Shown here: in pieces, positions 17,009-24,313 of the stretch
How positions within the stretch are numbered: position 1 is the stretch's first letter
Layout of the letters: each line of letters starts with the position of its first letter
NCBI GenBank assembly: GCA_947474225.1
Contig: CANJHS010000004.1
Location: 1 to 64,000 of the forward strand
Direction: 5' to 3'
Length of the DNA: 64,000 nucleotides
Source: Roseiflexaceae bacterium
GTDB lineage: Bacteria; Chloroflexota; Chloroflexia; Chloroflexales; Roseiflexaceae
Notes under the pieces: generated by a model
What the model was told of the DNA's origin: nothing
The model's database searches: none
The model's input: only the letters and a program-made list of their open reading frames with translations
Translations under genes and position numbers: made by a program

Positions 17009-20000
17009 ATGCAACGCTTTATTCTACGCTTTTGGTATGCGGTAATAGCAGTATTTATCGTTTTGTTGGTTGTTGCGCCCACAACGGCGTTGGTCGGTTT
17101 TATCGTCAAGAAGGTCGCAGATCGACAGGCAGTTATTCCCGATGTGATCCAGACAAATCGTGATCAGTTTATTGATATAGACCCGATGCCCAACGAAGAC
17201 GTCGTCTCACCTTCGAATCAGACAACAATGACGCTGAGTAGCGGTGCCGCATTTAGCTGTACCGTCGTCTACTCTGGTCAGGTGATGTGTTGGGGAGCGA
17301 ATGAATCCGGACAACTCGGTTTTGGCAGTGACGGTACTGCACTGCCCGTTGGGCGCACTGCGAATCTCGTTGCGTCACTCGAAAACGTCCAGATGGTCGC
17401 GCTTGGGTTGCGCCACAGTTGTGCTCTTGTGGCAAGTACTGGCGCTGTTTGGTGTTGGGGATCGAACACACACCGAGAAATCGGCCAATATGCAGAAGGA
17501 CCGCAGACTTCTACTTCTTTCGCCCAAGCAGTCGCAGGGCTTGATCATGTGACCACCATCGCTGCGGGGGACTCGCATACATGCGCGCGCAAAAAGGATG
17601 GGACAATTTGGTGCTGGGGAGCCAACGATCATGGTCAACTTGGTACTGGTGGAATAAGTCTCAGTGGTGGGCTCCAGAACGTCGAACTCCCTGAACCGAG
17701 TGTTGCGTTGTTCGTCGGTGCAAACACGAGCTGTGCACGAGCGCAGACCAATGCACTGTATTGTTGGGGTCGAGGTGTATTCGGCAACAGAACTGAATCT
17801 CCTGTTCCGATACCCATGGAAGTGTCTGATTTGCCAGTTGATGCCCAATTTGTCATCAGTACGACGCAAATATGTGGTTTTAGCGCAGCAACTCCAGTCC
17901 GTTGTTGGAGGACTGGTGATCAAAAAAGCTACGAAATCCCCAACTCCCAAGGAACAGCGCTGTTGCGCGCCCTCCGAGACGGGAGCATCTGCGGAATCGG
18001 CAAAAATGGGGTTTTGTGTTGGGATGATGCGATGCATATCCAAAACATCGAGGAACGCGGGGTAAGTGATATTTCCGGTGGATTAGCGTTCCAATGTATA
18101 GCACTGAGAGCTGGCCGCTTGCGCTGCCGCGGTGAAAACACGCATGGGCAGCTAGCAAGCTCCGTTCAATCGACGCAGAACGAATTTATCACCGTACCAC
18201 TCGGTAACAGCAGTTCGTTGTTGAGTGCAGGGGCTGGTCATATCTGTGGGATGTGGCAACTCGGTGCACTCCGCTGTTGGGGTCGAGCATACGAAGGCCA
18301 AATCGGTGTTGCAGATCTTATGGGAACGCGAAGTCATCCTGAACCTGTCACGCCAGATATCAACGGCGTACTTGCCATCGCTACCGGCAATAATCATACC
18401 TGTGCATTGCGTCACGATGAAAGTGTCCGTTGTTGGGGTGCAAATAATGCGGGACAACTCGGCAGCGGTGACACCCTGGATCGTGCAGTGCCGCAGGTCG
18501 TGGTGGGGGTGCAGGGCGGTGTTGCGTTAAGTGCCGGCAGTGACCATACGTGCCTTTTAGAACGTAGTGGCTCCGTGTGGTGTTGGGGGGATAACAGCGA
18601 GCATCAAGCCGGGAGTGGGTCGTTGCTTGTACCATTCCCTCAGCATATCGAAAATTTACAGTCTGTTGTTGCAATTGCCTCTGGCGGATCGACGAATTGT
18701 GCACTCCAAACCGATGCTCTCGTGGTTTGTTGGGGGGCGCAAATTGGTCGAAATCCATCATTCGAACCAATTGCAGAACTCACCGACATAATAGCAGTGG
18801 GAGTGGGTAATCGATTCGTCTGTGCACTGCGCATAGACGGATCAGTGTGGTGTTGGGGAGTCGAAGAAGGCGTTGGTGCTACTCCTGTACCACATCGCGT
18901 AGACGGCTTACCTCCTATCCGTGCCATACGTGCAGGTGGACAGCATATTTGTGCAATCGATACGGTACGGCATCTCTGGTGTTGGGGTGCGAATCAATTC
19001 GGTCAGGTTGCGCCACAAGACACGCGGTTGTTCATCAACGAACCAATAATGCGCGCAGACAATGTCGCTGCTGTGGCGACAGGCTTTGCGACCAGTTGTG
19101 CTCGCAACGTCGATGGAACCACACTCTGTTGGGGTGATAACCGGTACGGTCAGCTCGCTGACTCTGATCCATTGGTGAGTGAATCACCAGTGAAAGGATA
19201 TGACGACGGGTTTTCGCTGGTTGCCGGAGGAAATTTCAGTTGTGCTGTTTTGAAGTATGTTTCGGTTCGATGTTGGGGGAGTAACGAGTACGGACAGTTA
19301 GGAGACGGAACCACAACGGCATCCGCTGTGCCGCAAAGCGTTCGTAGTAACGAAGAGGTTGTCAGTATTGCTGCCGGTTCAGCGCATGCGTGTAGCATCG
19401 TGATTGACGGCACGGTGCGTTGCTGGGGCCACAATAATTTCGGGCAACTCGGCAACGAGACAACAGAAGATAGCTCGACCCCTGTGGTCGCTGCCGTCCA
19501 ATCTGTGGTACAGCTGTCGCTCGGACAGTCTCACAGCTGTGCGCTTTTGCAAGACGGCGGCGGGGCATGTTGGGGGCGCAATGACGATGGCCAGCTCGGG
19601 AGTGGCAATACGGCGAACTCTGGGATGCCGCTTCGAGTTGCATCACTCAGTACCGCGATTGCTCTTGCAAGCGGAGGTAATCACACCTGTGCGCTGTTGC
19701 AGAATGCAAAAGTGCTCTGTTGGGGTCGGGATGAGCAAGGACAGCTCGGAATTGGGACGGCTGGACCCGGCATCTCGGTACCCGCTGAAATACGAGGTTT
19801 AATGGGCGTCACAGCCCTGACCGCAGGTACCGATCACTCCTGTGCACTTACCACAGAAGGTATGGTTTGGTGTTGGGGATGGAATCGTTTTGGACAGACG
19901 GGTTCTCCCGCGGTAGGTGAGAAGGCATTCACCCTCGTGCCGGTCAAGGTCCCTGACTTGGCCAATGTCATTGCCGTCCAGGCGGGCGGGAATCACACCT

Positions 20001-21493
20001 GTGCGCTCCAACGCAACGGGCTGGTGCGCTGTTGGGGGGATAACTATAATGGTCAATTAGGCATCGAAAGCACAAATACGAACACCTTCGATAGCCATGG
20101 TCAGGACATTATTGGTCTCGAGAGCGTTATCCAAATCGCGACAGGCGGTGCGCACACGTGTGTGCTGCAACAACGTGGTAACGTGCGTTGTTGGGGGTGG
20201 AATCGAGATGGTCAGCTTGGTAATGGGAGCCGTACGCAACTCACAGATGTCTACGCACCAATCCCAATCGTCGGACAATCGCATGTTAGTTCACTCGCGC
20301 TTGGGGAAGGTCATCTCTGCGATGTCGACACCGTCGGGACGGTGTGGTGTTGGGGCGACAATGATGTAGGGCAATTGGGCATTGGCATTATGGGGAATGT
20401 TGGTGATCTAGGGTTGCCCAACGAAGTGGACGCCGCCGTCAACACCGTCTCGGTTGAACTCGGTGCTGGGCATAGTTGCGCACTACTGGTTACTGCTGAA
20501 CTCAACTGCTGGGGAAGGAACAACTTCGGCCAACTTGGTAATTCGTATGCTGGTGATATTGCAGATAGTGTGGTGCCAAACTTTGTCGTTGGTCTGACAA
20601 ACGTTTCTGCGTATAGTGCAGGTGGTGATACCAGTTGTGCTGTGTCAGCAGGTATCGTTTCGTGTTGGGGCGACAACCAATACGGACAGCTCGGGACAGC
20701 AACGGTCGGCGTCGGCGATTATCGCACAACGGCGACGGTCGTATCGGGGATCGATGCGGTGATTGATGTAACGGTTGGTACGCATCACGTCTGCGCGCTG
20801 CGGCAAGACCGTAGTGTGTGGTGCTGGGGACGAAACAACGCGCACCAAGTCAATGAATCATCCGCTGACATTGTCGTTGCTCCAACTCGCAGCGCACTCC
20901 AGAATCCCATCGCTGCAATTGGTTCGAGCGCAGATCATACCTGCGCTGTTGATACCGTTGGCGGCGTTTGGTGCTGGGGAAATAATCAATCCGGACAACT
21001 GAGTGTGGTTGGTGAGTCCATAAAGACCATACAACACGTCGAGGGTATTCCTGCAGCACGTTCTGTCGTCACGGGGAGTCAACATTCGTGCGCGCTCGAT
21101 GCGACGAATACCGTATGGTGCTGGGGCAACAACGAACACGGTCAACTTGGGAGTCCACGTACCGAACCGCCCACACTTGTACCACCGACGCTCGTAACAG
21201 GTCTGAAAAAAGTCCAGAGCATCGCAGCGGCGGGTGCGAGAACCTGTGCGGTCATCGAAAATGGTGAGGCTTGGTGTTGGGGTGAGAATGCTTCTGGCCA
21301 ACTCGGTGTTTCACCAAACCCAGATAGACATGCTCCTGCGCTCGTTCAACAACTCTGGTCAATGCGCGTCAGCACATTTATACCGCTCATTCCAACCGCG
21401 CTCCCACTCTTGCCCACAACACATCCCACCGAAACGAGTATTCCAACCAAAACGACAATTCCGACTCGGACATTAATTCGTACTCACCCGTAA
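17009..21493 (+). CDS. Giant membrane-anchored RCC1-repeat beta-propeller protein (28 repeats)
   Basis: The 1494-residue protein has one N-terminal membrane segment (about residues 8-34, FWYAVIAVFIVLLVVAPTTA), a short linker, then 28 repeats of about 49 residues up to about residue 1445. Each repeat carries the RCC1 core in a form like HTCALxxDGxVxCWGxNxxGQLG. The count of 28 equals four seven-bladed propellers. Almost every blade has two cysteines 8-10 residues apart (CAL...CWG), which fits disulfides in an exported protein. Repeats 4-7 and 10-13 are more degenerate (for example CRG or CWD for CWG). The tail is Pro/Thr-rich (IPTALPLLPTTHPTE). Export is inferred from anchor and cysteines. Function unknown; RCC1 folds usually bind other proteins or polymers. 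AAGAG precedes the ATG. Confidence 0.93.
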   Translation: MQRFILRFWYAVIAVFIVLLVVAPTTALVGFIVKKVADRQAVIPDVIQTNRDQFIDIDPMPNEDVVSPSNQTTMTLSSGAAFSCTVVYSGQVMCWGANESGQLGFGSDGTALPVGRTANLVASLENVQMVALGLRHSCALVASTGAVWCWGSNTHREIGQYAEGPQTSTSFAQAVAGLDHVTTIAAGDSHTCARKKDGTIWCWGANDHGQLGTGGISLSGGLQNVELPEPSVALFVGANTSCARAQTNALYCWGRGVFGNRTESPVPIPMEVSDLPVDAQFVISTTQICGFSAATPVRCWRTGDQKSYEIPNSQGTALLRALRDGSICGIGKNGVLCWDDAMHIQNIEERGVSDISGGLAFQCIALRAGRLRCRGENTHGQLASSVQSTQNEFITVPLGNSSSLLSAGAGHICGMWQLGALRCWGRAYEGQIGVADLMGTRSHPEPVTPDINGVLAIATGNNHTCALRHDESVRCWGANNAGQLGSGDTLDRAVPQVVVGVQGGVALSAGSDHTCLLERSGSVWCWGDNSEHQAGSGSLLVPFPQHIENLQSVVAIASGGSTNCALQTDALVVCWGAQIGRNPSFEPIAELTDIIAVGVGNRFVCALRIDGSVWCWGVEEGVGATPVPHRVDGLPPIRAIRAGGQHICAIDTVRHLWCWGANQFGQVAPQDTRLFINEPIMRADNVAAVATGFATSCARNVDGTTLCWGDNRYGQLADSDPLVSESPVKGYDDGFSLVAGGNFSCAVLKYVSVRCWGSNEYGQLGDGTTTASAVPQSVRSNEEVVSIAAGSAHACSIVIDGTVRCWGHNNFGQLGNETTEDSSTPVVAAVQSVVQLSLGQSHSCALLQDGGGACWGRNDDGQLGSGNTANSGMPLRVASLSTAIALASGGNHTCALLQNAKVLCWGRDEQGQLGIGTAGPGISVPAEIRGLMGVTALTAGTDHSCALTTEGMVWCWGWNRFGQTGSPAVGEKAFTLVPVKVPDLANVIAVQAGGNHTCALQRNGLVRCWGDNYNGQLGIESTNTNTFDSHGQDIIGLESVIQIATGGAHTCVLQQRGNVRCWGWNRDGQLGNGSRTQLTDVYAPIPIVGQSHVSSLALGEGHLCDVDTVGTVWCWGDNDVGQLGIGIMGNVGDLGLPNEVDAAVNTVSVELGAGHSCALLVTAELNCWGRNNFGQLGNSYAGDIADSVVPNFVVGLTNVSAYSAGGDTSCAVSAGIVSCWGDNQYGQLGTATVGVGDYRTTATVVSGIDAVIDVTVGTHHVCALRQDRSVWCWGRNNAHQVNESSADIVVAPTRSALQNPIAAIGSSADHTCAVDTVGGVWCWGNNQSGQLSVVGESIKTIQHVEGIPAARSVVTGSQHSCALDATNTVWCWGNNEHGQLGSPRTEPPTLVPPTLVTGLKKVQSIAAAGARTCAVIENGEAWCWGENASGQLGVSPNPDRHAPALVQQLWSMRVSTFIPLIPTALPLLPTTHPTETSIPTKTTIPTRTLIRTHP

Positions 21494-21710: not shown

Positions 21711-22934
21711 ATGCGATTGTTATTTGTATCGACGGCACATTCGTATCGGAACAACGATTTTATCGCTGCTGCAAAAACACAATCCTATGATTATCTACTG
21801 CTTTGTGAAGGGAGCATTGGTCACCTGGATGAGCAGCATATAGTTGCCGATTTTGCACATGTAGAATTGCTACTCGCACGTATAGCCCAGCTCCACGATC
21901 AACAGCTATTTGGTGCAGTTATGGCATTAGACGATAGTGGAGCACATATTGCTGCTGCAATCGCAGAAGCGTTACATATCCCGCATAATCGATTCGAAGC
22001 AATCGAGGCTGCACGTAATAAAGGACGTATGCGAACCGTGCTGTACGATGCAGGCGTCCCTGTCCCGTGGTTTCATCGGTTTGTTGGCGCAACCCCCGTT
22101 GCAGATATCGTTGCGCAGATAGAATTCCCCTGTGTGATAAAACCATTATTGCTGAATGGTTCACGAGGCGTGATTCGCACCAATACTCCAGAGGAGTTTC
22201 TCGTGGCTCGTACCGAGCTCCTGGCGATATTAGATAATATCGAAGGATCTGATGGAGAGCATGCGTTTTTGGTCGAAGCCTATATTCCTGGTATTGAAGT
22301 TGCCCTTGAGGCGATTCTCGATAATGGTCAACTTTATCCACTTGCCCTGTTTGACAAACCCGACCCCCTCACGGGCCCACTTTTCGAAGAGACTATTTAC
22401 GTCACACCTTCGCGTCATTCTGCCGCTATACAGTCAGCAATTATTGCGACCGCACGTGATGCTGCTGCAGCGATTGGACTCGTGAATGGTCCCGTGCACG
22501 CAGAACTTCGGTTTAATGATGCTGGTGTATGGGTGGTCGAAGTCGCAGGCAGGTCTATTGGCGGACTGTGTTCGCGCACACTGCGTTTCGGCGTGCGAGA
22601 TTCCCTCGAAGAGCTTATTTTGCAGCAAGCAATGGGTGTTTTTCGTGAACCATCACTCCAAACCAACGCCAGTGGAGTGATGATGATTCCCATCCCGCAT
22701 GCGGGGATCTTGCAGCGTGTCGAAGGGATTGCCGATGCCTGTCTTGTACCTGGAATAGAATCAGTCGAAATTACCAGCCCCTTGCATCAGGCAATACAGA
22801 CGCTCCCTGCGGGCGAGAGTTATCTCGGCTTTATTTTCGCCCGGGGAGATACCCCGGCAGAAGTTGAAGATGCGCTGCGCTCCGCACACAGTAAGCTTTC
22901 GATAACCATTATGCCGCATTTTTTGTTGACATAA
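21711..22934 (+). CDS. ATP-grasp carboxylate-amine ligase-like enzyme
   Basis: The 407-residue protein has an N-terminal preATP-grasp region (MRLLFVSTAHSYRNNDFIAA), an ATP-grasp core (about 110-300) with NKGRMRTVLYDAGVPVPWF, the ATP-binding lysine and glycine loop in FPCVIKPLLLNGSRGV, VEAYIPGIEVALEAI, and the metal-binding HAELRFNDAGVWVVEVAGR motif. A C-terminal domain (about 310-405) resembles that of L-amino-acid-ligase-type ATP-grasp proteins. It would couple a carboxylate to an amine using ATP. Substrates unknown. AGAGGA lies six bases before the ATG. It ends against the stop of the convergent YggX-like gene with no gap. The 217 bases upstream show no other gene. Confidence 0.88.
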   Translation: MRLLFVSTAHSYRNNDFIAAAKTQSYDYLLLCEGSIGHLDEQHIVADFAHVELLLARIAQLHDQQLFGAVMALDDSGAHIAAAIAEALHIPHNRFEAIEAARNKGRMRTVLYDAGVPVPWFHRFVGATPVADIVAQIEFPCVIKPLLLNGSRGVIRTNTPEEFLVARTELLAILDNIEGSDGEHAFLVEAYIPGIEVALEAILDNGQLYPLALFDKPDPLTGPLFEETIYVTPSRHSAAIQSAIIATARDAAAAIGLVNGPVHAELRFNDAGVWVVEVAGRSIGGLCSRTLRFGVRDSLEELILQQAMGVFREPSLQTNASGVMMIPIPHAGILQRVEGIADACLVPGIESVEITSPLHQAIQTLPAGESYLGFIFARGDTPAEVEDALRSAHSKLSITIMPHFLLT

Positions 22935-23474
22935 CTATTTTCTTGGTCCGCCTTTGCTGGGGGCTGCTGCCTGTGGGGTCCACCCTTCTGGAGTAGCAGC
23001 GCCTTCGCCGAAAAAGAAATCATCCATTGCTTTGAGCAAAACACCCTGGGATTGTGGATCGACGAGACTCATGCTGTAGTGATTTATCAGAATGCGTTCT
23101 TGCTCTGGCCACAGAGCCCAACCACGTGCCGAAACAGTTTCGTAAATTTTCGTCCCTAATTCGCCAGGGAAAGGCGGTTTCGCCAACCCGGGAAGTATCC
23201 GTTTATATTTCACGCAAGAGACCATCCGTGGTCCTTCTGGAGGTCCGAAGAAAAACATTTGAATGGCTGCCATACGGCGACGCTCGTACTGCGCCATTGT
23301 TGGGTCAATATCGAACTGCGCAATGAAAATCCGCTCGCTACGGACCCAGGCATTCCAGCCGAGCGCTGATATAGTGGTCAAAATCCGCTCGCCGAGATCT
23401 CCGGGGACTGGCGCGTCAGACAATGCCGGGAGCATGCGATCGAAATAGGTACAATGGATGAGTGGTGTTGACAT
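22935..23474 (-). CDS. Tandem two-domain YggX (Fe(II)-trafficking/oxidative protection) protein
   Basis: The 179-residue protein is two YggX-like domains in one chain. Domain 1 (about residues 5-77) has IHCTYFDRMLP, VPGDLGERILTTISALGWNAW and a closing IQMFFFG. Domain 2 (about 85-168) has VSCVKYKRILPGL, FPGELGTKIYETVSARGWALW, QERILINHY and DDFFFGEG...PEGWTPQ. Canonical YggX is a single domain of about 90 residues with an N-terminal FCT(Y/F)L, PGELGKRIY, WxxWxxxQTMLINE and FLFEG, so both halves match over their length. Each half keeps the key N-terminal cysteine (Cys8 and Cys87). YggX protects iron-sulfur enzymes in gamma-proteobacteria; a duplicated version here is unusual. AAGGAG six bases before the ATG fixes the start. 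Confidence 0.82.
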   Translation of the reverse strand: MSTPLIHCTYFDRMLPALSDAPVPGDLGERILTTISALGWNAWVRSERIFIAQFDIDPTMAQYERRRMAAIQMFFFGPPEGPRMVSCVKYKRILPGLAKPPFPGELGTKIYETVSARGWALWPEQERILINHYSMSLVDPQSQGVLLKAMDDFFFGEGAATPEGWTPQAAAPSKGGPRK

Positions 23475-23515: not shown

Positions 23516-24313
23516 ATGCTCCTTCTCGTTACAATGGAATGTCTGTTGAGTGCGACGTTTCTTCGTTCATTATGCATGGCGGGGACGATTCCAGATGCAA
23601 TATTTGTAGCAGACCGAGATGCACACGGCTATCAGCGAGTACAGACACGTGTCAATCTTATACGCAACGATGATCGTGTCGACCAAATTGCACATCGCTA
23701 TGGAATCACATTGTTTCGAGTCAATGACTGGAATCTTGTTCCTGATGCATTCCTCACACAGTTTGCAATGATTTTGGTTGCGTGCTACCCAAAGAAGCTC
23801 CCCGCAGCCCGATTTCTCCGCATTGGAGTGCCTGCATGGAACGTACATCCATCTGCGCTCCCAGCATTACGGGGTCCAGACCCACTTTTTTATGTCGCAC
23901 GAGGTGATGCAGAACCCGCAGTCACCATACATGAGCTCGATGTCACATACGACACTGGTCCAATCATTGCCACACTACCCGTTGACCTATCAGAAGAGTG
24001 CACCGAACGGCAAACGATCATCACGCATGCAACCGTTGCTGCGGATCTCTACCGATACACGACGAATCATCTGCATACACCTTTTCCACAAGGTGACAGT
24101 GAAAATCAGCGCTGGGCGGCAATTCCTACTGCAGAAGATTTCACATTACGGCCAGAATGGACAATGAGGCGCACGGCTCGATTTGTGATGATGACCGATA
24201 TGCGGAATCAGCCGTACAGGGTGCCCGAAGCAGACCTGTGGGTACGTCGCATCGAAGCGCACGGTCAGATTCCCATTCGTTGCGTTGATGGTGTGCTGAT
24301 GGCGTCGCTATGA
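23516..24313 (+). CDS. Formyltransferase-fold enzyme (methionyl-tRNA formyltransferase-like)
   Basis: This protein of about 265 residues has the formyltransferase core: PAWNVHPSALPALRGPDPLFY carries the catalytic Asn and His (NxHPS), and TIHELDVTYDTGPIIA carries the catalytic Asp (DTG). The C-terminal RWAAIPTAEDFTLRPEWTMRR stretch parallels the linker of Fmt-like enzymes. The N-terminal strand (MLLLVTMECLLSATFLRSL) is divergent from the usual MGTPxFA start. It may formylate a sugar amine, an amino acid or a tRNA; it is unlikely to be the housekeeping Fmt given its divergence. The ATG is chosen for GGAG six bases upstream; other in-frame ATGs exist at 23504 and 23534. Confidence 0.78.
   Translation: MLLLVTMECLLSATFLRSLCMAGTIPDAIFVADRDAHGYQRVQTRVNLIRNDDRVDQIAHRYGITLFRVNDWNLVPDAFLTQFAMILVACYPKKLPAARFLRIGVPAWNVHPSALPALRGPDPLFYVARGDAEPAVTIHELDVTYDTGPIIATLPVDLSEECTERQTIITHATVAADLYRYTTNHLHTPFPQGDSENQRWAAIPTAEDFTLRPEWTMRRTARFVMMTDMRNQPYRVPEADLWVRRIEAHGQIPIRCVDGVLMASL

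Follow-up and report, generated by a model that had tools for sequence, protein, structure and literature searches.

A tandem YggX protein with unequal domains in a Roseiflexaceae genus of the Chloroflexota

The window, i.e. the whole stretch of 64,000 nucleotides from a Roseiflexaceae bacterium that was analyzed, carries on the minus strand at 22935..23474 a yggX gene encoding 179 amino acids in which the Pfam family PF04362 occurs twice. A ribosome-binding-like AAGGAG lies upstream of the ATG; promoter and terminator scans returned nothing notable. The diverged N-terminal domain comprises residues 1–81 (23232..23474, minus strand), and the canonical C-terminal domain comprises residues 82–167 (22974..23231, minus strand). 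Residues 168–179 (22938..22973, minus strand) form a basic, Gly-rich tail that ends in APSKGGPRK and is invariant in the genus. There is one cysteine of interest in each domain. Cys8 (codon at 23451..23453, minus strand) stands at the position of Cys7 of Salmonella YggX, which is essential there. Cys87 (codon at 23214..23216, minus strand) is the C-domain counterpart and likewise aligns with Cys7; both are invariant in the genus.

The two neighbours of the gene lie on the plus strand. An ATP-grasp ligase gene with a LAL_C2 domain (21711..22934; PF13535, PF18603) converges on yggX, and many Chloroflexia have it at this position. A formyltransferase-like gene (23516..24313; PF00551), for which the start codon was chosen by hand, diverges from yggX and has weak similarity to Fmt. 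The order formyltransferase–yggX–ATP-grasp (LAL_C2) is common across the Chloroflexia, with tandem and single-domain yggX alike, and is a conserved gene place; in Ktedonobacteria-like genomes, a divergent formyltransferase gene also stands beside yggX. We know of no functional link of either neighbour to iron. The earlier note had drawn attention to the absence of a gap between yggX and the antiparallel ATP-grasp gene, and the two stops (22934 and 22935) do abut. This zero gap recurs in just three close relatives (four genomes in all) and is larger in the other subclade; the abutting stops are thus incidental and carry no special meaning. A 1494-residue protein of RCC1-like repeats, encoded at 17009–21493, is seen in the same place throughout the genus, including the single-domain species G410 described below.

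Both halves belong to the YggX family, as the earlier note had proposed. When tested separately against PF04362, for which the Pfam gathering score is 27, the N half reached 42.8 bits (E 4.7e-11) and the C half 97.7 bits (E 3.4e-28). The whole protein (151.8) and the C half (109.3) exceed the cut-off of 74 set for the NCBIfam equivalog PRK05408.1; on its own, the N half scores 46.1 and falls below it. The two halves are 37% identical over 73 residues, aligned without gaps (E 2e-19). A phmmer search with the 179-residue protein returned only YggX structures, which were matched through the C half. Since no Pfam family other than PF04362 is found with the whole protein or with either half, a better match to an unrelated duplicated family, which had been raised as the way the assignment might fail, is ruled out. 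A frameshift fusion or an assembly error is ruled out by the identical fusion in nine genomes of the genus, and contamination by the same yggX neighbours in related metagenome-assembled genomes (MAGs). Among the motifs listed in the earlier note, Cys8, Cys87, both WxxW pairs (W40/W43 and W119/W122) and both FFFG motifs are invariant across the eight genus members aligned; PGxLGxRI is less strict than had been described, with some P-to-A or P-to-S changes. YggX is usually a single domain of approximately 90 residues. This size is a usual trait of the family and not a defining sequence feature, and the 179-residue protein is a genuine two-domain form of a known family and a modest surprise.

An AlphaFold model of the tandem YggX was built from eight genus members (pLDDT 79.8, pTM 0.48). 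Both halves are predicted to adopt the YggX fold: residues 79–159 of the C domain match 1t07 with a Z score of 12.2, and residues 2–81 of the N domain match Salmonella YggX (1xs8) with a Z score of 9.4. The four top structural matches of the model are all YggX, and the matches other than YggX in the Foldseek and VIA search of the model were at chance level. The folds of the domains are well predicted; at a pTM of 0.48 the relative arrangement of the two domains is unreliable, and the tail is modelled as disordered with low confidence.

The tandem is present in nine of the 11 genomes of the source's genus. Of the other two, G410 has a single C-like YggX domain; G409 gave no match because its contig breaks off within yggX, whose 3' end occupies the final bases of L109. 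The relatives in the genus are mostly named Roseiflexaceae MAGs, in agreement with the Chloroflexota origin that had been suggested from the letters. Several have lake-site isolate names, and the genus is taken to be freshwater Roseiflexaceae, the freshwater lakes being partly a reading of these names. Two records filed under other names (L099 as Thermoflexus hugenholtzii and L104 as Singulisphaera sp.) have the same gene order and proteins close to those of the genus, and the names look wrong. Among 158 Chloroflexia genomes, the tandem occurs only in this genus. In the sample of the whole phylum, PF04362 is found in 116 of 400 genomes; YggX itself is common in the Chloroflexota, and the view of the family as mainly gamma- and betaproteobacterial was too narrow. 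The same survey revealed another tandem YggX in seven Ktedonobacter-like genomes from four genera (G265, G272, G334, G340, G346, G358 and G364). Tandem YggX is therefore rare in the Chloroflexota and not unique to one lineage. None of the 37 matching plasmid records spans 80% of the tandem.

The two domains have diverged to different degrees. The comparison used 35 columns conserved among 45 single-domain relatives. Of these columns, 86–94% are retained by the C domains of the genus and 49–66% by its N domains. For the Ktedonobacter-like tandem the values are 97–100% and 77–83%, respectively. The PEGW end is absent from the N domain in both tandem lineages. The Asn-His-Tyr of INHYGL is altered in the N domain of both, differently in each, and the N domain of the genus lacks most of INHY. 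The solved proteobacterial YggX proteins keep the Asn of NHY and lack the His and Tyr, so a YggX can do without these two residues. The cysteine is kept in both domains of all tandem members of both lineages. In these alignments the C domain is canonical and the N domain diverged in both lineages. Both halves are under purifying selection, with pN lower than pS in both halves for every pair. For pairs with unsaturated sites, omega is around 0.04–0.14 within subclades; in comparisons between subclades, with dS close to saturation, the N half reaches values as high as 0.4. Taken together, pN below pS and the higher omega of the N half show that the N domain is maintained yet evolving faster.

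We calculated trees of the YggX domains from 86–88 columns, with and without a set of short relatives that contain four cysteines (4-Cys forms). The N domains of the genus form one group with support of 100/100. In the tree without the 4-Cys forms, the N and C domains of the genus lie together on one side of a branch that separates them from all other rows (98/98), which fits duplication in place, as does the gene neighbourhood shared with the single-domain yggX of other Chloroflexia. An in-frame duplication of the resident yggX in the ancestor of the freshwater Roseiflexaceae genus would have given rise to the fused pair of domains. Once the 4-Cys forms are added to the tree, the long N branch no longer falls next to C; this placement counts against duplication in place and leaves room for an N domain derived from another YggX. 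A fusion of a 4-Cys short form to a canonical YggX is not supported, since the N domain lacks the other three cysteines and groups with C in the tree without these forms. A single origin with the Ktedonobacter-like tandem is rejected by the AU test when the C domains are joined (p 0.0026); joining the N domains, whose branches are long, is not rejected (p 0.32). On the strength of the C-domain test and the domain trees, we read the two tandems as products of two separate YggX duplications in the Chloroflexota. There are also two genomes of another Chloroflexia family (G454 and G455, family f94) with two separate yggX genes each, on different contigs, i.e. duplication without fusion.

The single domain of G410 is 66% identical to the C domain. 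When the tree is built from the adjacent D-threonine-aldolase-like gene, together with outgroups from the Roseiflexaceae, G410 groups with one of two tandem subclades (support 92/97). The AU test for this gene rejected the tandem genomes as a clade without G410 (p 0.014). The tree of the short C-domain yggX instead favours G410 as basal. Resting on one gene tree, loss of the N domain in G410 is probable. The position of a species with a C-like domain inside the tandem genus, as given by the neighbour-gene tree, implies that the N domain can be lost while the C domain is kept. The formyltransferase and ATP-grasp genes are both absent from the G410 genome, which is 91% complete.

The known YggX proteins (PF04362, Iron_traffic; PRK05408.1; PDB IDs: 1yhd, 1xs8, 1t07 and 2mzy) share with the window protein the family sequence, the position of Cys7 and the fold predicted for each half. 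The window protein differs in having two domains per chain, a diverged and shortened N domain, and the extra basic Gly-rich tail. In gammaproteobacteria yggX lies beside mutY (PMC11078426), whereas here the neighbours are the formyltransferase and ATP-grasp genes. The single-domain YggX proteins of the Chloroflexota (Roseiflexus-like, Chloroflexus-like and others) are 51–61% identical to the C domain where compared; they occupy the same gene place in most genera and lack the N domain. The Ktedonobacter-like tandem has the same two YggX domains with both cysteines, an N domain without PEGW and with altered NHY, and the divergent formyltransferase gene. It differs in the independent origin read from the C domains, a longer linker and a less diverged N domain. 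A Gly-rich basic tail (for example SKGGGGAPRKK or APSKGGPRK) is seen in most canonical YggX proteins of the Chloroflexota (L003–L032, L043–L065), many of them with KGG..RKK, and is absent from the Roseiflexus-like relatives and the solved proteobacterial proteins.

Enterobacterial YggX binds Fe(II) weakly, with a Kd of about 1e-5 to 1e-6 M (PMC3989283), and is induced by oxidative stress (PMC2989944). Cys-7 is essential according to the title of Gralnick and Downs (2003), as cited in PMC2989944 and PMC11078426. By transfer from these proteins, the tandem YggX would have a role in Fe(II) binding and protection. The C domain would be the ancestral, working YggX, small and probably cytosolic, with one reactive N-terminal cysteine; it would bind Fe(II) weakly and, during oxidative stress, protect DNA and Fe–S proteins. 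The N domain would be a diverged copy that keeps the fold and the cysteine and lacks part of the conserved surface. This partial loss favours an accessory role over an equal second iron site, and we infer that the N domain most likely tunes the C domain, either as a second thiol or as a contact surface for a partner. Overall, the right description is probably that of a YggX-type Fe(II)/oxidative-protection protein that arose by duplication in place, its C domain being the core YggX and its N domain a diverged copy.

The main rival to the accessory N domain is a shared-thiol site, in which Cys8 and Cys87 hold one Fe(II) between them or act as a redox switch through a disulfide made under oxidative stress; neither would be possible for a single-Cys YggX monomer. 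Exactly one conserved cysteine per domain in all tandem members of both lineages, retained in an N domain that is otherwise drifting, speaks for such a site. Every single-domain form also keeps its cysteine, however, so retention needs no pairing, and we regard a shared site as a tentative possibility. The earlier note had put forward that the duplicated protein may bind two irons or form an intramolecular dimer; the two domains would then act as a covalent pair, with equivalent Fe(II) sites or as such a dimer, and double the capacity. The invariance of both cysteines, the YggX fold predicted for both domains and the two origins of the tandem are all compatible with it. The strong inequality of the domains in both lineages, with the loss of conserved columns and of PEGW from the N domain, speaks against equivalent irons or a pseudo-symmetric dimer, and the arrangement of the domains is not confidently predicted; the equivalent pair is unlikely. 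It is very doubtful that the N domain is a docking domain for the protein encoded by one of the two flanking genes (formyltransferase or ATP-grasp): this gene pair is widely conserved beside yggX, and G410, the sole species with no N domain, has neither gene, but that is a single case in an incomplete genome, and the single-domain yggX of other genera has the same neighbours, so the genes need no N domain.

The accessory reading of the N domain can be extended, more speculatively, to both lineages. The doubling would have evolved twice in the Chloroflexota with the same split each time, the conserved C domain being joined by a degenerate, thiol-bearing N domain that makes up a new regulatory or docking module, whose loss in one species accompanies the loss of two flanking genes. 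We put this forward with low confidence. The tandem protein alone leaves the view of the YggX family unchanged, and what makes it interesting is that the asymmetric duplication recurred and that the N domain was probably lost again in nature. Two independent fusions and a relative with a probable loss provide natural variants in which the roles of the conserved Cys and of NHY and PEGW can be separated.

The YggX fold has been classed as a treble clef without zinc (PMC4999995). The zinc ligands of the treble clef (CxxC + CxxC) are reduced to one of four cysteines in each domain of the window protein, with Y/F, S and G/A at the other three positions, and it is not expected to hold structural zinc. 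The 4-Cys forms are 25 short PF04362 proteins from other Chloroflexota families (L066–L090), and all 25 have the four cysteines. Two lie in a CxRC near the N-terminus and two in a CxxCW where the first helix begins, at places that match the treble clef ligands; canonical YggX keeps the first cysteine only. Judged by these motifs, the short forms look like a zinc-binding form of the YggX treble clef, in line with PMC4999995, and they offer a direct test of the direction of descent, with a zinc finger as either the ancestor or the offshoot of YggX. A proteobacteria-like YggX (L033) was also found on a contig of a Roseiflexaceae MAG (G406), which reflects either gene transfer or contamination.
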